Source of the DNA: Vulcanimicrobiota bacterium
GTDB lineage: Bacteria > Vulcanimicrobiota > Vulcanimicrobiia > Vulcanimicrobiales > Vulcanimicrobiaceae
Assembly (NCBI GenBank): GCA_027452165.1
Contig: DAIDGX010000026.1
Coordinates: 139,769 to 203,768 of the forward strand
Length of the DNA stretch: 64,000 nucleotides
Direction: 5' to 3'
In this document: positions 1 through 6,462 of the stretch, one piece after another
How positions within the stretch are numbered: the first letter of the stretch is position 1
How the letters are laid out: the number at the start of each line of letters is the position of its first letter
The notes under the pieces: generated by a model
Told to the model about the DNA's origin: nothing
The model's database searches: none
Seen by the model: only the letters and a program-made list of their open reading frames with translations
Translations under genes and position numbers: made by a program

Positions 1-182
1 CCTTGGCCGACAGCGTTGAGGAACTGAAGAACATCTGTGCGTGCGGTCGTAAGGCGACGATGAACCCACGCTTCGACGAGCGCGGCCAACGCATCGTGAG
101 CGGCGCCCAGGTCGCGATCGAAGGGCCGGTCGAGTATCGCCCGATGTGCGCGCGCTGCTTTTACGAAGGGCTCGCACCTTGA
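1..182 (+). CDS. tdk: Thymidine kinase, C-terminal end (partial)
   Basis: Open reading frame entering from the left edge and ending at a TGA at 180-182; 59 residues are visible. It phosphorylates thymidine to dTMP in the salvage pathway. The visible part aligns with the zinc-binding lasso region of the E. coli-type enzyme: VEELKNICACGRKATM, then a glycine-rich stretch, then CARCFYEGL near the end, giving the paired cysteines of the structural zinc site. The catalytic P-loop part lies outside the window. The last 22 bases overlap convergently with the end of hisD. Identification is by recalled family motif and is strong despite the short length. Confidence 0.88.
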   Translation, partial: LADSVEELKNICACGRKATMNPRFDERGQRIVSGAQVAIEGPVEYRPMCARCFYEGLAP

Positions 183-1420
183 CGTAGCCGCGCGGCATGC
201 GCGTGGGCCGCTAAGCCTTCGGCTCGCGCGATGATCTGCGCATCGCGCGCGACCTGGGGATCCACAGCGCCGTTTGCGCGTTCGTAGGTGCGCACGGTGA
301 GGAACGTGTACACGGAGAGCCCCGAACTAAAGCGCGCACTACCCTGCGTCGGTAGCACGTGGTTCGGGCCCGAACCGTAGTCACCGAAGACCTCGCCGAC
401 GCTGCCGCCCAGGAAGAGCGAGCCGTACATCCGCACGCGTCCGGCGAGCGCTTCGGCGTCGGTGCCTTGCAGTGCGAGATGCTCGGGCGCCAACGCATCG
501 CACAACGGCGCGACATCGGCAAGCGGGAGAACGATCGCGGCACCGTGGGCCGCAAGCGACGCGTGCGCCGTTGCCTGCGTGGGCAGCACGCCAATCTGCG
601 CGTGTAACGCATCGTCAACCGCGTCCGCTAGCTCTTCGCGCGTGGTGATGAGGATCGCGCGTGCTTGCGGGTCGTGCTCGGCCTGCGCGAGCAGGTCGGC
701 CGCGACGATCCGCGGATCGGCTCCTGGCGTCGCGACGACGACGATCTCGGATGCGCCTGCGAGTGCGTCGATTCCGCACGCGCCGTACACGGCGCGTTTG
801 GCTGCCGTGACGTAGGCATTACCGGGGCCGACGATCGTATCGACGCGCGGGATGAGTTCCGTCCCATACGCGAGCGCGGCGATCGCCTGCGCGCCGCCGA
901 GTTCGTACATTTCGTCGATGCCGCAGATTGCCGCCGCCGCGAGGAGTACGTCGTTGACACGCGGGGTGCAGACCACGCGGCTGGGTACGCCCGCGACGCG
1001 TGCCGGAATCGCGCCCATCAGCAGCGACGAGGGCAGCGGATGACGACCGGCTGGAACGTAGATGCCGGCGCGCCCGATCGGCACGAGGCGATGCCCGAGT
1101 TCAAGGCCGTGCGCGATCGTGCGAGCCTCGGTGATCGCGTCGCGCTGGACGCGTGCAAACGCCTCGATGCGCCCAGCGGCGCGTTCGAGCGCGCCGCGCA
1201 ACGTCGCATCGACGGCGCCGTATCCGCGAGCGATCTCGCTTACCGGGACGCGGCGCGGTGCAGCATCCCCAAAGCGCCGCGCGTATGCGACGAGTGCAGC
1301 ATCGCCTTCGGATCGCACGTGCGCGACGATCTCGGTGACATCCGGGAGCGCGATTGTGGTGTCGCGCCGTAGCACGTCCTGCGGCGTGAGCCGCGCAAGG
1401 AGCCGCTGCTTGCAACTCAT
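161..1420 (-). CDS. hisD: Histidinol dehydrogenase
   Basis: Last enzyme of histidine synthesis: oxidises L-histidinol to L-histidine with two NAD+, zinc-dependent, cytosolic. 419 residues, close to the usual ~430. Family blocks are present in order: GRAGIYVPAGRHPLPSS, GGAQAIAALAYGTE, DTIVGPGNAYVTAAKR, AGASEIVVVA, LLAQAEHDPQA and YGSGPNHVLPT, covering the NAD fold and the zinc and histidinol-binding histidines and glutamates. The start is fixed by an ATGA overlap with the stop of the HisA-HisI-HisE gene (1417-1420); the longer open frame upstream is only a shadow of that gene. It is the last gene of the his operon and its end overlaps tdk convergently. Confidence 0.97.
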   Translation of the reverse strand: MSCKQRLLARLTPQDVLRRDTTIALPDVTEIVAHVRSEGDAALVAYARRFGDAAPRRVPVSEIARGYGAVDATLRGALERAAGRIEAFARVQRDAITEARTIAHGLELGHRLVPIGRAGIYVPAGRHPLPSSLLMGAIPARVAGVPSRVVCTPRVNDVLLAAAAICGIDEMYELGGAQAIAALAYGTELIPRVDTIVGPGNAYVTAAKRAVYGACGIDALAGASEIVVVATPGADPRIVAADLLAQAEHDPQARAILITTREELADAVDDALHAQIGVLPTQATAHASLAAHGAAIVLPLADVAPLCDALAPEHLALQGTDAEALAGRVRMYGSLFLGGSVGEVFGDYGSGPNHVLPTQGSARFSSGLSVYTFLTVRTYERANGAVDPQVARDAQIIARAEGLAAHAHAARLRQGASPS

Positions 1421-2643
1421 ACGGCTCTCGAGGCGAGGTGGGCCATGACGTCGCGGATGCTCACGCCCGCGGCCTGCATCCTCACCGTAAGAAAATAGAG
1501 AACGTCCGCGCACTCCCACGCAACCTCGTCGCGCGTGCGCGCGGCGACAACCTCGCGCGCCTCTTCGGCGATCTTTTCGGCAAGGAGCTTCGGTTCGTCG
1601 AGCAAGCGACGCGTGTACGATCGGATATCGCCCGTCGCCGCGCGCGCGGCAACGCGGGCGCGTAGCTCCTCCCACGTAAAATCGCTCGCGCCGAAACAGG
1701 TTTCGGCGCCGGTGTGACACGTCGGTCCCGTCTGGTCGACGAAGAATCGCACGGCGTCGCGATCGCAATCGAGCTCGATGCGTACGAGACGCTGCATCGC
1801 ACCGGAGGTTTCGCCTTTGCGCCAGAGCGCATCACGGCTTCGACTGAAATACGTGCCCGTACCGTCGCGTAACGCGACGCGCAACGATGCAGGCGACGAG
1901 TACGCCAGCATCCGCGCCGTTCCGTCACGCGCGTCGCAGACGACTGTGGGAACCAGATTTCCGGCTTTCGTGAAATCCGTAAGCGCGATGATTACCTCGA
2001 TCGGATCGATGAGCCCGGTATACAGTGCCATCCCCGCCTGCACGTCGATGCCGTCGCGATCGAGGGCCGCGATCTCCTCGACGCTCTTCACGCCTCCGGC
2101 GACCGTGAGCGTGCCGCCGACCTGTGCGCGAAGCTCGCGCGCGAACGCAAGCCCGAGCCCGCCGAGCATGCCTTCGCGCTCGATTTGCGTGAAGAGGAAG
2201 CCGCTACAGTACGGTTCGAGTGCCGTAGCGCGCGCAAGCGGCGTTTCGTCCGTGCGCCGGCGCCAGCCGTGTGTCGCGACGGTGCCGTCGCGCGCATCGA
2301 TCGCGACGATCGTGCGTTCCCGCGGCAGCGCGCGTAGCAGGGCAGGCGTTGCGGCGGTGCCGATGATGAGGCGCTGCGCCCCGGCGCGTAGATAGCGCTT
2401 CGCGGTTTCGACATCGCGGATGCCGCCGCCGACGCGGCAACGCGCACGCCCGCAGAGTTGCTCGATGAGCGCACGGTTCTCACCGGTTCCGCGGGCGGCG
2501 TCGATGTCGATCACGGCGATCTCACCGCATCGGCCAAAGCGTTCCGCAAGGGCGAAAATGTCGTCGCGTTCGATGACCAGGCGTTCGCCTTGCTCGAGCT
2601 GCACCGCCTTGCCGCCGATGATGTCGATGCTGCTCACGATCAC
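1417..2643 (-). CDS. hisAIE: Trifunctional HisA-HisI-HisE fusion
   Basis: One continuous 408-residue frame carries three activities of the pathway. Residues 1-218 are HisA (ProFAR isomerase, TIM barrel), with the two expected catalytic aspartates, D7 in SIDIIGG and D116 in AIDARDG, and phosphate loops GGGIRD and VAGGV. Residues about 219-320 are HisI (phosphoribosyl-AMP cyclohydrolase) with YFSRSR, LWRKGETSG and zinc cysteines C293 (DCDRD), C309 (CH) and C316. Residues about 325-408 are HisE (phosphoribosyl-ATP pyrophosphatase) with AEKIAEEAREV and ECADVLYFL. The GTG start overlaps the hisF TGA (GTGA, 2640-2643). HisI-HisE fusions are common; joining HisA as well is unusual. No stop or frameshift separates the parts. 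Confidence 0.95.
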   Translation of the reverse strand: MIVSSIDIIGGKAVQLEQGERLVIERDDIFALAERFGRCGEIAVIDIDAARGTGENRALIEQLCGRARCRVGGGIRDVETAKRYLRAGAQRLIIGTAATPALLRALPRERTIVAIDARDGTVATHGWRRRTDETPLARATALEPYCSGFLFTQIEREGMLGGLGLAFARELRAQVGGTLTVAGGVKSVEEIAALDRDGIDVQAGMALYTGLIDPIEVIIALTDFTKAGNLVPTVVCDARDGTARMLAYSSPASLRVALRDGTGTYFSRSRDALWRKGETSGAMQRLVRIELDCDRDAVRFFVDQTGPTCHTGAETCFGASDFTWEELRARVAARAATGDIRSYTRRLLDEPKLLAEKIAEEAREVVAARTRDEVAWECADVLYFLTVRMQAAGVSIRDVMAHLASRAV

Positions 2644-3392
2644 GTGCGCACCCTCACGCCGCGTTGTGTGCAGCATGCCTTTACATCGGCAATGCGCAGC
2701 AGTCCGTCGTGGAAGACCGTGGCCGCGAGTGCGGCGTCGGCGCCAGCCCCGAAGGCGTCGGCGAACGAAGCACAGGTGCCGGCACCGCCCGATGCCACGA
2801 TCGGAATGCGTAGCGCCGCACGCGCCTGGGCGAGCAATGCGGTGTCGAAGCCCGCCTGCGTTCCGTCGCGATCGATCGAGGTGAGCAGCAGTTCGCCCGC
2901 GCCGCGCGCTTGCGCTTCGCGTGCCCATGCGATCGGATCGCGCGAGATGGCGACGCGTGCGCCATGCGTTGCGATCGCGTTGCCGGACGCGGTGCGACGC
3001 ACGTCGATTGAGATGACCACGCACTGGCGTCCGAAGCGCTCGGCCGCGCGCGTGAGCAGCGACGGATCGGCGACCGCCGCGCTGTTGATCGCCACCTTGT
3101 CCGCGCCCGCGTCGAGCAGGCGGGCGACGTCATCGATGTTTCGGACGCCGCCACCGGCCGTAAGCGGCACGTCGATCGCCGCTGCCACCGCGGCAACGGT
3201 ATCGATCGCGGAGGCGCGCCGCTCGCTTGTCGCCTTGACGTCGAGCAGTACGAGTTCGTCGATGCCCTCTTGGCAGTAGGTCCGCGCCGCTTCGACCGGA
3301 TCGCCGGCGTCGCGTAATGCCAGAAAGTGTATGCCTTTGACGATACGTCCGGCGGCGACGTCGAGACACGCGATCACGCGCTTTGCGAGCAT
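2640..3392 (-). CDS. hisF: Imidazole glycerol phosphate synthase, cyclase subunit
   Basis: Cyclase half of IGP synthase: uses ammonia from HisH to turn PRFAR into imidazole glycerol phosphate and AICAR. 250 residues, the normal length. The N-terminus LAKRVIACLDV carries the catalytic aspartate at position 11; the second catalytic aspartate is in VISIDVRR. Barrel phosphate-binding segments GGGVRNIDD, DKVAINS, TSIDRDGT and VASGGAG are all present. It starts within the end of hisH (19 bp overlap) and its stop overlaps the next gene, so it is translationally coupled to its glutaminase partner. Confidence 0.97.
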   Translation of the reverse strand: MLAKRVIACLDVAAGRIVKGIHFLALRDAGDPVEAARTYCQEGIDELVLLDVKATSERRASAIDTVAAVAAAIDVPLTAGGGVRNIDDVARLLDAGADKVAINSAAVADPSLLTRAAERFGRQCVVISIDVRRTASGNAIATHGARVAISRDPIAWAREAQARGAGELLLTSIDRDGTQAGFDTALLAQARAALRIPIVASGGAGTCASFADAFGAGADAALAATVFHDGLLRIADVKACCTQRGVRVRT

Positions 3393-3985
3393 GCTGCCTC
3401 CCGCGCGAACGCGACGAATGCGTCGAGGAATGCGCGTCCGTATGTGCCGCTACGCTCCGGATGGAACTGCGTACCGACCGTGTTGCCTTTGCGGGCGACG
3501 CTGACGAAACGGTGTCCATCGAGTTCGGTCGTGGCGATTGCACACGTGCTTGCAACGGGGGCGAAACCATGCGCGAAGTAGGCCCAGTCCCGCACGCCGT
3601 CGCCGCCCTCGACGAGGTTCCAGCCCATGTGCGGCAGACGTGCTGCAGCAAGTGCGCGCACCCGACCGTCGAAGAGCCCGAGCGCGCGCGCCTCGGGGGC
3701 CTCGTCGCTACCTTCGAAGAGGAGTTGATAGCCCGCGCATATCCCGAGCAGCGGCATGCCGCGCTCGACGGCGTGCAGCAGCGGCTCGCGCAGGGTCAGG
3801 CGATCCAATTCCGCGGCGATGTAACCCAGGTTCGCGACACCGGGAATAACGAGTGCCGCGCATTCCTGGAACGCGCGGGGCGTGCATACGAACGCGACGC
3901 GAGCGCCGCTGCGTTCGAGGCCGCTTGCGACGTTTGCGCGATTAGCGGCCCCGAGGTCGAGGATCCCGATCGAAGGTTCTGACAT
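3374..3985 (-). CDS. hisH: Imidazole glycerol phosphate synthase, glutaminase subunit
   Basis: Glutaminase half of IGP synthase: class I amidotransferase releasing ammonia from glutamine for HisF. 203 residues from the ATG at 3983-3985, which begins the conserved MSEPSIGILDLGAANRAN strand; an in-frame upstream extension is discarded because it runs into hisB. The nucleophile cysteine is in LLGICAGYQLLFEGS and the catalytic His and Glu in TQFHPERSG. GVANLGY and MGWN blocks fit the family. Five bases separate it from hisB and it overlaps hisF by 19 bases. Confidence 0.96.
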   Translation of the reverse strand: MSEPSIGILDLGAANRANVASGLERSGARVAFVCTPRAFQECAALVIPGVANLGYIAAELDRLTLREPLLHAVERGMPLLGICAGYQLLFEGSDEAPEARALGLFDGRVRALAAARLPHMGWNLVEGGDGVRDWAYFAHGFAPVASTCAIATTELDGHRFVSVARKGNTVGTQFHPERSGTYGRAFLDAFVAFAREAACSQSA

Positions 3986-3990
3986 GGCGG

Positions 3991-4575
3991 CTAGAAACGT
4001 CCTTTGGTGGATGCGATGAGCGTAGATGCGGCCGGAGCGATCGCCCATGCCTGGGCGCAGGCACGTGCGGCGGCCTTGAAAGCGGCCTCGACGAGGTGAT
4101 GCGGATCGTCACCTGCCAAACGATCAACGTGTAGCGCCAAAAGCGCGTGCTGTGCAAAGCTCGCGAAAACGTGCGCAACGAAGACGGTTTCGAGATCCTC
4201 GACGCGTTCGTGGGTGAGGTCGAGCGCGATGCGTGACCACGGGCGCCCGCCGATATCCACCACCGCTCGTACGAGCGCGTCGTCCATCGGTATCGTACTC
4301 TCGCCGTAGCGTACGATCCCGCGACGATCGCCGAGTGCGCCATCGAGCGCCTGACCGAACGCGATCGCCGTGTCCTCGACGAGGTGATGGCGGATCCCGT
4401 CGATCGTGCGCGCCTGGATGTGGCACCCGATGCGCGCGTGGAACGCAAACGCGAGCAAGAGGTGATCGAACATCGCGATGCCCGTCTCGACGACGGGCGT
4501 GCTCGGATCATCGAGCAACAGGTCGACGCTGATGTCGGTCTCGGCGGTCGTACGCCGCGCTGCTCCGCTACGCAT
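3991..4575 (-). CDS. hisB: Imidazoleglycerol-phosphate dehydratase
   Basis: Dehydrates imidazole glycerol phosphate to imidazole acetol phosphate; Mn2+-dependent, forms a 24-mer in characterised members. 194 residues, the length of the monofunctional enzyme, so the histidinol-phosphate phosphatase domain of the enterobacterial fusion is absent and must be encoded elsewhere. Metal-binding histidine blocks: MFDHLLLAFAFHARI, IRHHLVEDTAIAFGQAL and GDDPHHLVEAAFKAAA. The start at 4575 overlaps the hisC stop by 8 bp and gives the family N-terminus RTTAETDI; a long upstream in-frame extension is a hisC shadow. Confidence 0.96.
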   Translation of the reverse strand: MRSGAARRTTAETDISVDLLLDDPSTPVVETGIAMFDHLLLAFAFHARIGCHIQARTIDGIRHHLVEDTAIAFGQALDGALGDRRGIVRYGESTIPMDDALVRAVVDIGGRPWSRIALDLTHERVEDLETVFVAHVFASFAQHALLALHVDRLAGDDPHHLVEAAFKAAARACAQAWAIAPAASTLIASTKGRF

Positions 4576-5659
4576 TGAATCTTCCGCGTAGCATCGTCGC
4601 GAGTGACGCCGTGACGCGTGCTGTCGTTGCGTCGTCGGTGGCGCAGAAACGAAGCATGCCGGAGAGCTCGGGGGTGTCGTAGGAGCGCACGGCGATGCCG
4701 TCCGCGAGCAGCGCGTTTGCGATGTGCGAGGCGCCGGAACCAAGCTCTGCAAGCATGAAGTTGCCCGCTCCGCGCCAGATCGCGCGAGCGCTCGGCGCGA
4801 TCGTGCGTTCGAGGGCATCGAGGCTCCTCGAAATTTGCGCGCGGAGCGCGGACTCAAATGCGGCGATCGTGGTGCCACCGGTGAGGTATGCGTTCGCGGC
4901 CGCGAGCGATGCAACGCCGATCGGGTAGGGCCCGATCGAGCGCCGGAACGCCGCGGTCAGGTACTCTGCGGCGACGGCATACCCGACACGAGCGCCCGCA
5001 AGCGCCGCGCTCTTCGAAAACGAGCCGATCACGGCGACGTTCGGCGCATCGGCACGAACGCAGCCGATCAGCGAGCGTTCCGAGAATGCGAGATAGACCT
5101 CGTCGATCGCGACGAGCGCGTTGGGAAGTGAGGCGGCGATGTACGCAACGGCCTCGGCGCTGGGCGTGTCCCCGGTGGGATTGTTGGGATTGCCCAGCAT
5201 GACGAGCTTTGCGCGCGCGTCGGCCGCGGCGACCACCGCGTCTGGATCGAGTTGCCAACGCGTGGTGTAAGGGACGCGCGTCACGCGCGCGCCTGCGCAG
5301 GCCGCAACGCGTGCATACATGCCGAACGACGGCGCGGCGGCAACCATCGTGTCGCCGGGTTCGAGGACGGTACGAGCGACGGCATAGAGCAACTCGTCGG
5401 CGCCGTTGCCGATCGTGATGCGCTCGACCGTGCAGCCGAGCCGTCTCGCGAGGTTGCTCGCGAACGACCGCATGAGTTCGGTCGGATAGGTGCGTAGCAT
5501 CTCGCCGTCGATCGCGCGCACGGCGTCGATTACGCACTGGGGCACGCAAAGCGCCGCCTCGTTGCGGTGCATGCGGACCACGATGCCGCGGTCGTCGAGA
5601 TCGCGCGCCGGATAATCGTCGAGCGCGCGAATGGCGGGGCGAATGAGGCTCTCGATCAT
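4568..5659 (-). CDS. hisC: Histidinol-phosphate aminotransferase
   Basis: PLP-dependent class I/II aminotransferase converting imidazole acetol phosphate to histidinol phosphate with glutamate. 363 residues. Seen: RMHRNEAAL substrate segment, GNGADELL cofactor loop, GNPNNPTGD, AIDEVYLAFSE (PLP-binding Asp and Tyr) and SFSKSAALAGARVGY with the Schiff-base lysine. The start is set by the ATGA overlap with the hisG stop at 5656-5659. Position between hisG and hisB in the operon supports HisC over other aminotransferases of the fold. Confidence 0.95.
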   Translation of the reverse strand: MIESLIRPAIRALDDYPARDLDDRGIVVRMHRNEAALCVPQCVIDAVRAIDGEMLRTYPTELMRSFASNLARRLGCTVERITIGNGADELLYAVARTVLEPGDTMVAAAPSFGMYARVAACAGARVTRVPYTTRWQLDPDAVVAAADARAKLVMLGNPNNPTGDTPSAEAVAYIAASLPNALVAIDEVYLAFSERSLIGCVRADAPNVAVIGSFSKSAALAGARVGYAVAAEYLTAAFRRSIGPYPIGVASLAAANAYLTGGTTIAAFESALRAQISRSLDALERTIAPSARAIWRGAGNFMLAELGSGASHIANALLADGIAVRSYDTPELSGMLRFCATDDATTARVTASLATMLRGRFNA

Positions 5660-6258
5660 TGCGTTACCAGCATCGCGAGGTCGCTGCGAAAAAGGACGTC
5701 GCGCACCTCGAGCCCCATCGCATCGATGGTGCTGCCGGTGAGCACGATATCGATCATGACGTCGGCCATGCCGTAGGCAATCGCGCTCTCGACGGTGCCG
5801 CTGATCGCGATCGGCTCGATGCTTCGCTGCGCGGTCGCAAGGGTGGTGAGATAGCTCCGGGCGAGCATAGGATAGCGCGCACAGTAGGCGGCACGCACGG
5901 TGCCCGATGGCGGAAAGTCGTACCCGCGTGGGGTGATCGCGCAGAGGGTCGGCTTGCCGTAGCGCGCGCGCGGATCGACCCAGGGGATCGTCACGGTTTC
6001 CAGGCGTGCGTCGAGGCGATTGCCCGCGGCGAGCCACTCTGCGAGCAGGTCGCACCCGGTGTAGGCGATGACGCTCCGTCCGCGTCGCGCGAGATCGCTT
6101 GCGAGCAGCGGGATGTCCTCACCGCGCGCGAGCGTGCGCGCCGCTTCACCGGCCGGCGCGTATGCATCGAACGCGGCGGCGGCGGTCGCTGCAAGACCAC
6201 GGTTCTTCGGGAGGATCACGACGGTTGTTGTGGGGTGGCTGCTCACAGGCTGGTACAC
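5656..6258 (-). CDS. hisG: ATP phosphoribosyltransferase, short form
   Basis: First, committed step: ATP plus PRPP gives phosphoribosyl-ATP. 200 residues, so this is the short catalytic form lacking the C-terminal regulatory domain; such enzymes normally need HisZ as partner, and no hisZ is in this window. The PRPP-binding segment ISGTVESAIAYGMADVMIDIVLTG matches the family pattern in two adjoining blocks (E, GxAD, D, TG). The N-terminal strand is somewhat divergent (VVILPKNRGL). GTG start at 6256-6258 with GAAAGG about 6 bases upstream. It is the first structural gene after the attenuator. Confidence 0.9.
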   Translation of the reverse strand: MYQPVSSHPTTTVVILPKNRGLAATAAAAFDAYAPAGEAARTLARGEDIPLLASDLARRGRSVIAYTGCDLLAEWLAAGNRLDARLETVTIPWVDPRARYGKPTLCAITPRGYDFPPSGTVRAAYCARYPMLARSYLTTLATAQRSIEPIAISGTVESAIAYGMADVMIDIVLTGSTIDAMGLEVRDVLFRSDLAMLVTQ

Positions 6259-6280
6259 GGCAAACCTTTCGGGCGAGAAT

Positions 6281-6317
6281 AAAAAAGACGGGGTCGCGGT
6301 AATCGCGACCCCGTCTT
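6281..6317 (-). terminator. Histidine operon transcription attenuator (intrinsic terminator)
   Basis: On the minus strand a perfect 14-bp stem (arms AAGACGGGGTCGCG and CGCGACCCCGTCTT, 5-base loop) runs straight into a run of six T. It lies 29 bp after the leader-peptide stop and 22 bp before the hisG start, exactly where an attenuator terminator belongs. By analogy with enterobacterial his leaders, stalling of the ribosome at His codons would be expected to disfavour this hairpin; the competing antiterminator pairing was not worked out. Confidence 0.93.
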
Positions 6318-6345
6318 CGTGAGCTTTGCAGCTACTTCGAACGCG

Positions 6346-6423
6346 TCAATCGATCATCCGCACGAGATCCTGCGATCCGTGATGATGGTGATGATGGACG
6401 ACGTGCGCGAAGGCGAACGACAT
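6346..6423 (-). CDS. hisL: Histidine operon leader peptide
   Basis: A 25-codon frame, ATG at 6421-6423 to TGA at 6346-6348, beginning MSFAFAHVV and continuing with six consecutive His codons (CAT/CAC mixture), then GSQDLVRMID. Seven of residues 7-15 are histidine, which cannot be chance immediately ahead of an intrinsic terminator and hisG. Function as a sensor of charged tRNA-His by ribosome stalling follows from known his, trp and thr attenuators. No Shine-Dalgarno is visible; the predicted transcript begins about 3 bases before the ATG, so translation may be leaderless. Confidence 0.93.
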   Translation of the reverse strand: MSFAFAHVVHHHHHHGSQDLVRMID

Positions 6424-6432
6424 AGTGGGACG

Positions 6433-6462
6433 GTTATATCAGGGCGAGCAGCGAGCTGTCAA
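6433..6462 (-). promoter_or_regulatory. Sigma70-type promoter of the his operon
   Basis: Minus-strand TTGACA (6457-6462), 18-bp spacer, TATAAC (6433-6438): 6/6 and 5/6 matches to the vegetative consensus. The predicted start is the A at about 6426, three bases before the leader ATG. Confidence 0.85.

Follow-up and report, generated by a model that had tools for sequence, protein, structure and literature searches.

A probable near-leaderless histidine attenuator ahead of a divergent hisG operon in Eremiobacterota

Attenuation requires a ribosome on the leader soon after RNA polymerase has started, and the locus described here raises the question of how that would be achieved by a transcript that seems to begin almost at the start codon of its leader peptide and to offer no Shine-Dalgarno. 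The locus lies in the window (the whole stretch of DNA that was analysed, 64,000 nucleotides) of an Eremiobacterota MAG, whose assembly comprises 2.64 Mb in 27 contigs, with 63% G+C in the 83% of the genome that was read. Our analysis leads us to regard it, with high though not full confidence and on the strength of sequence comparison, as a ribosome-mediated transcription attenuator of the his operon, the leader peptide of which would be translated from a near-leaderless 5' end. If the AUG is indeed at the 5' end of the RNA, a ribosome could load once the first bases emerge, giving a tighter coupling between polymerase and ribosome, and the switch would depend on the leaderless route of initiation. 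An uncultured phylum would also gain annotated regulatory elements.

Anatomy and conservation of the his leader

The features of the locus, all on the minus strand, are listed in Table 1. The genes after the leader follow the order hisG-hisC-hisB-hisH-hisF-hisA/IE-hisD. The initial annotation had described a consensus promoter, a 25-codon peptide with seven His (six of them consecutive) and a 14-bp terminator before hisG, and had read them as his attenuation. Apart from small counting differences, its coordinates and description are right: the promoter—TTGACA-18-TATAAC with an extended -10—and the peptide are read directly from the minus strand, and the terminator is present, with a stem to which the folding tool gives 15 pairs rather than 14. 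The reading as his attenuation, against which a loss of the His codons and terminator in related genomes was said to count, is well supported, both being kept in eight genomes.

Table 1. Features of the his leader and operon in the window
Feature	Position	Strand	Basis
-35 box TTGACA	6457..6462	-	sequence, 6/6 match; 8-9/10 bases kept in its bin among three congeners
Extended -10, TGA-TATAAC, 18-nt spacer to the -35	6433..6441	-	sequence; TGnTATA in 9/9 homologous leaders
Predicted transcription start, A, 7th base past the -10 box, 3 nt before ATG	6426	-	inferred from promoter geometry
Leader peptide ORF, 25 codons + stop, MSFAFAHVVHHHHHHGSQDLVRMID, no Shine-Dalgarno (ATG 6423-6421; stop TGA 6348-6346; seven His in total)	6346..6423	-	sequence; kept in G001, G002, G032, G069, G086, G103, G112
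Six tandem His codons (regulatory codons)	6379..6396	-	sequence
Hairpin CACGGAUC...GAUCUCGUG capping the longer 1:2 stem	6361..6381	-	RNAalifold, nine leaders; both partners changed in two pairs, C-G to U-A
Candidate antiterminator element (region 2) UGAUCGAUUGAC, sharing bases with the leader stop codon; potential pairing partner GUCGCGAUUA in the 5' arm plus loop of the terminator	6345..6356	-	folding of ribosome-free RNA
Intrinsic terminator, 15-bp stem, 5-nt loop, U6 (stem-loop 6318-6284; U6 6286-6281; stem 27 nt past the leader stop)	6281..6318	-	folding tool; both partners changed in six pairs, nine leaders
Shine-Dalgarno of hisG, GAAAGG	6265..6270	-	sequence; AAAGG also in G001, G002, G069, G086
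hisG, divergent ATP phosphoribosyltransferase, first operon gene (start GTG 6258, 26 nt past the terminator stem)	5656..6258	-	Pfam PF01634 E 1.7e-12, above gathering score; NCBIfam TIGR00070 47.2 bits, below cut-off 75.75
hisC, hisB, hisH, hisF, hisA/IE, hisD	161..5626	-	ORFs; hisC by Pfam aminotransferase class I/II; others read from their translations and matched to the genes that follow the leader in relatives and other phyla

Searches of 149 genomes of the phylum, based on hisG and on sequence patterns, yielded nine leaders from eight genomes that belong to a single family (G000, G001, G002, G032, G069, G086, G103 and, twice, G112). Each of the nine combines TGnTATA, tandem His codons, a stop and a terminator with a divergent hisG directly downstream, and the tandem His codons number five or six in all copies except one of the two in G112, which has four. 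A covariance model built from these leaders recovers the same nine at 98-139 bits in the 149 genomes, where the next match scores 33 bits; the other matches in the phylum (23-33 bits) were rejected as terminator-like or low-complexity, bar one branched-chain amino acid (BCAA) leader in G032, a near-leaderless one preceding ilvB. The same leader is carried by contigs DAHUZB010000013 and DAIDHQ010000040 (Candidatus Eremiobacterota), and these relatives are all known from assembled genomes only. In 30 of the phylum's genomes, whose HisG is of the standard type, no His-rich short ORF was found in the 1.5 kb upstream. The his leader accompanies the divergent hisG operon.

A few other observations concern HisG and His-rich frames in the phylum. 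HisG has a patchy distribution, being present in 63 of the 149 genomes; within genus g51 it occurs in G086 only, where it is of the divergent, leader-bearing type, and G112 has two divergent hisG copies with a leader of its own before each. The single PF13393 match in the source genome is a 434-aa open frame that we take for HisS, and a separate HisZ was not seen there. A pattern of His codons in about ten genomes, CEPxHHHHH, was considered as a second His leader and dismissed: judged by sequence, these ORFs form the C-terminal portion, read in frame, of a longer protein of Fur/Zur type.

Promoter and predicted 5' end of the transcript

The position of the transcription start decides whether the leader is to be called near-leaderless, as had been claimed from the spacing of promoter and ATG. 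When the upstream regions of three congeners are compared in 10-nt bins, the -35 box has 8-9 identical bases, the spacer 2-6 and the -10 box 9-10, and each bin above the -35 box has only 1-6 out of 10. We read this identity at the two boxes as the footprint of the promoter, and by the same comparison an alternative conserved promoter is absent upstream. In G002, a different region lies beyond the promoter and similarity to the other leaders ends at that point. Between the extended -10 and the leader ATG at 6423 there are 9 nt (minus strand; CGTCCCACT), and the distance from the end of the -10 to the ATG is 9-12 nt in nine of nine copies (eight genomes, one family). A Shine-Dalgarno core is absent from the 20 nt before the ATG in eight of the nine leader copies, and the single AAGG in the remaining one (G001) sits at the -10 box and so precedes the predicted start. 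A generic promoter scan misses this promoter for the sole reason that it demands a T at the sixth position of the -10.

The near-leaderless start, which is a prediction, is supported because conservation covers the promoter boxes and their spacing from the ATG but does not extend upstream of them, and because none of the copies has a Shine-Dalgarno past the predicted start. The his leader transcript very probably begins only 3 nt before the ATG of the peptide. An attenuator that is real but not leaderless, transcribed from another promoter further upstream and translated by internal initiation or by scanning without a Shine-Dalgarno, would be compatible with a 3-nt leader for which promoter geometry is the only basis. 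We consider this unlikely in view of the congeners, which conserve the -35 and -10 boxes and nothing above the -35, of the differing sequence past the promoter in G002, and of the constant spacing in the nine copies.

Leader RNA and the proposed switch

The near-leaderless attenuator, which is the reading we prefer, makes demands on the RNA between the promoter and hisG. The leader RNA folds at -64.4 kcal/mol, compared with -44.3 +/- 3.8 for shuffled sequences (z -5.3). Two scans were performed on 83% of the genome: the first, which is blind to residues, looks for short ORFs that have a -35/-10 pair 3-13 nt ahead of them and a terminator and a gene behind, and the second, which is blind to promoters, looks for a run of one residue class in a terminator-linked short ORF. 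The his leader ranks first in the former, and its His run ranks second of 310 terminator-linked short ORFs in the latter. Because of the z score and these high ranks in both scans, the locus is not a matter of chance. RNAalifold on the nine leaders finds eight pairs with both sides changed in the hairpin and the terminator together.

The initial annotation had suggested that the leader be folded for a competing antiterminator, and a candidate does emerge in the ribosome-free RNA, in the form of the UGAUCGAUUGAC/GUCGCGAUUA helix. Its nine pairs are formed in 96.3% of cells in six sequences (G000, G001, G002, G032, G069 and G103), compared with at most 44% for versions of the helix slid by 1-3 columns in the same six. 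It shows one U-A to C-G double change, probably a single event in two sister genomes, and its pairing score is reached by 37 of 500 shuffles, which makes this a borderline control. In G086 and G112, folding gives another helix at the equivalent place that matches the logic of an antiterminator. Terminator and leader hairpin covary, and the antiterminator is proposed with lesser, moderate confidence.

The geometry of the leader would allow a ribosome to govern this helix. The antiterminator element begins at nt 68 of the ORF and the last His codon occupies nt 43-45; going by usual footprints, a ribosome on the last His codon would reach approximately nt 58, and the element would be covered if the ribosome stood on the stop codon. 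When folding is repeated with the ribosome masked, eight of the nine leaders have a more stable nascent structure for a ribosome at the last His codon than for one at the stop, a comparison in which arm pairing and the two states are poorly separated. With no ribosome on the RNA, folding pairs the His-codon region with the antiterminator element (CAUCAUC with GAUGAUCG).

We therefore offer the following mechanism as a proposal. RNA polymerase would start about 3 nt ahead of the leader ATG, and a ribosome would load on the 5'-end AUG without a Shine-Dalgarno and trail the polymerase. With ample charged tRNA-His, the ribosome would pass the six His codons to the stop and mask the element (6356-6345), whereupon the terminator (6318-6284) would form and transcription would end. 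With scarce charged tRNA-His, it would stall on the His codons, some 25-40 nt upstream, leaving the element free to pair with the terminator in its 5' arm and loop, so that the polymerase would read into hisGCBHFA-IE-D. In RNA that has no ribosome, the His-codon region would bind the element and the terminator would again be free to form.

A different role can be imagined for the same parts, in which leader and terminator mainly yield a short RNA and a His-rich peptide acting in trans, cis attenuation being secondary. The terminated near-leaderless RNA, of about 145 nt and with an ORF, does share the anatomy of rnTrpL (PMC7298713), but the peptide outside the His run varies among genera while the RNA elements are kept, and the leader always lies immediately before hisG, which makes this improbable in our view, somewhat more so than a start further upstream.

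Near-leaderless leaders in the source genome and beyond

Another outcome of this study is that the his leader has company, and at least five further near-leaderless attenuator candidates were found in the same genome: thrC/Thr, hom/Met-Cys, DAHP synthase/Trp, proC/Pro and trpS/Trp. The top five of the residue-blind scan are the his leader, MTTFAFSWWWHQ... before DAHP synthase, MISANVTTSTTTTTTTTILVRCRVDVG before threonine synthase, MTIRFANPCPPQPHQEMPVR before proC and MFAPTAVMMCSMCCRMQMRTAWVVMEHRV before homoserine dehydrogenase, and in the promoter-blind scan Thr, His and Met/Cys take the first three places, Trp the eighth and Pro the twenty-fourth. A sixth leader, MSLHAWWWPRTDR before trpS, was found by its promoter pattern. 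In these additional leaders, whose downstream genes were identified by NCBIfam, the distance from -10 to ATG is 7-10 nt and a terminator follows each, while the proline and homoserine dehydrogenase leaders are recognised by residue content, position and terminator only. Among the best 30 of the promoter-blind scan, no leader of a cognate gene was seen without a near-leaderless promoter; leaders with weak codon runs may escape both scans. The leaderless build thus appears to be the rule for attenuators in the source genome. That leaders for Thr, Met/Cys, Trp and Pro recur with their cognate codons in one genome also favours the reading of the locus as his attenuation. Six consecutive His bind Ni and Zn in vitro, but that the peptide should be a metal-binding sensor instead of a gauge of histidine is hardly credible when similarly built leaders in the genome have runs of Thr, Trp, Pro or Met/Cys, each before the cognate amino-acid gene.

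Several of these leaders are kept in relatives. The WWW leader before DAHP synthase (G000:C3:138608, L403-L419) occurs in 16 genomes of the family with a spacing of 7-10 nt, and DAHP synthase is visibly the printed downstream ORF in 13 of the 16; conservation of this leader was also seen in G001. The WWW leader of trpS (G000:C24:224535, L423) is present in G000 and G002, and the Pro-rich proC leader MTIRFANPCPPQPHQEMPVR with its terminator (G000:C23:37841 region, minus strand) has a counterpart, MTTRVAFPCPPQPHLEMPVR, at locus L373 of G001. Outside the window, the Thr8 leader before thrC and the Met/Cys-rich leader before homoserine dehydrogenase (G000:C14:1169 and 3351) lie 2.2 kb apart.

The layout of the his leader extends beyond the phylum. 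When 84,980 species genomes were scanned for TTGAC-17/20-TATA-25/52-five His codons, 100 stretches matched; of the 80 that were read, 42 have an in-frame short ORF. In at least 22 loci with an ATG leader, the -10 ends 4-13 nt before the ATG and his genes lie downstream, a count that is not a census, since leaders behind a long 5' UTR fall outside the scan and each ORF was read from its first in-frame start. These 22 loci belong to Acidobacteriota, Chloroflexota, Bacteroidota, Spirochaetota (Treponema), Planctomycetota (Phycisphaerae), an Alcanivoracaceae MAG, unassigned MAGs and Eremiobacterota, and their clustering at 4-13 nt is informative because the scan pattern allowed distances up to about 28 nt. 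Near-leaderless poly-His leaders ahead of his operons in several other phyla are at loci L107, L108, L113, L114, L119, L130, L131, L132, L144, L152, L163, L165, L168, L170, L174, L175 and L180. It is conceivable, and we put it forward as a tentative idea that we hold with less than even confidence, that near-leaderless leaders are the normal build of attenuators across many phyla (Eremiobacterota, Acidobacteriota, Chloroflexota, Bacteroidota, Spirochaetota and Planctomycetota), with the Shine-Dalgarno-led his and trp leaders of enterics as the special case, and that the set seen here (His, Thr, Met/Cys, Pro and twice Trp) controls much of amino-acid synthesis in this organism. At least six candidates in one genome, together with a his-operon layout found in several phyla outside the Rfam family, make a testable case for leaderless initiation as a general partner of attenuation, not just an actinobacterial one.

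Comparison with known systems highlights similarities and differences. Like enterobacterial hisL (RF00514), the locus has tandem His codons in a short leader ORF, a terminator and a competing antiterminator (here a candidate) before a his operon; unlike it, the leader is near-leaderless without a Shine-Dalgarno, precedes a divergent hisG and belongs to a different phylum, and its RNA shape differs enough for the RF00514 His_leader model to score 28.9 bits, below the gathering score of 49. No T-box match was found up to E 1 in 401 nt. PMC9413887 names attenuators in Proteobacteria and T-boxes in Firmicutes and Actinobacteria as the regulators of his genes, with new attenuators proposed in some Firmicutes; the latter resemble our locus in having His-leader peptides outside RF00514 with terminator and antiterminator, and differ in phylum. 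The initial annotation had considered leaderless loading an unusual combination for attenuation, a view that does not hold: it has been reported in Streptomyces lividans (PMC8079986) and for trpL of Sinorhizobium meliloti (PMC7298713), and is seemingly the rule in this genome. In S. lividans, trpL, leuL, ilvL, metL and thrL are reported from RNA-seq to be transcribed leaderless, and its leaders (trpL1/2, leuL1/2, ilvL, metL and thrL) share with ours a leaderless ORF with cognate regulatory codons, its trpS leader and its Met and Thr leaders having counterparts in the source genome; however, histidine is not among the eight reported and several lack a clear intrinsic terminator (PMC8079986), whereas each leader here has one. 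The S. meliloti rnTrpL starts with the ATG of trpL and is likewise an attenuator transcript giving a terminated small RNA (predicted here), but it concerns tryptophan, comes from Alphaproteobacteria and has reported functions in trans (PMC7298713). Mycobacterial poly-Cys short ORFs, leaderless according to the title of Canestrari 2020 as cited in PMC13236596, are alike in that repeats of a single codon govern the operon that follows; they are termed translational attenuation in that citing text, whereas the strong intrinsic terminator here points to transcription. The leaderless aspect has precedents in Streptomyces, Sinorhizobium and mycobacteria and is hence not new. A partial literature search found no paper on Eremiobacterota leader peptides, which is weak evidence of novelty. 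The his attenuator belongs to a known type, and the wider near-leaderless pattern is the more interesting part.

Finally, leaderless promoters were counted irrespective of attenuation. In the genome itself, the crude pattern TGNTATAN{9,13}ATG shows no enrichment (15 matches vs 21 in reversed controls), and the pattern that includes a -35 box is enriched (22 vs 11), with ratios of 28:4, 29:3 and 31:9 in three relatives. Leaderless promoters look common in the lineage: at G000:C23:301924 and L378, the promoter of an apparent ribosomal protein L21 gene (MYAIIETGGKQVRVAEGEI...) ends a few nt before the ATG, an arrangement that is kept in G002.
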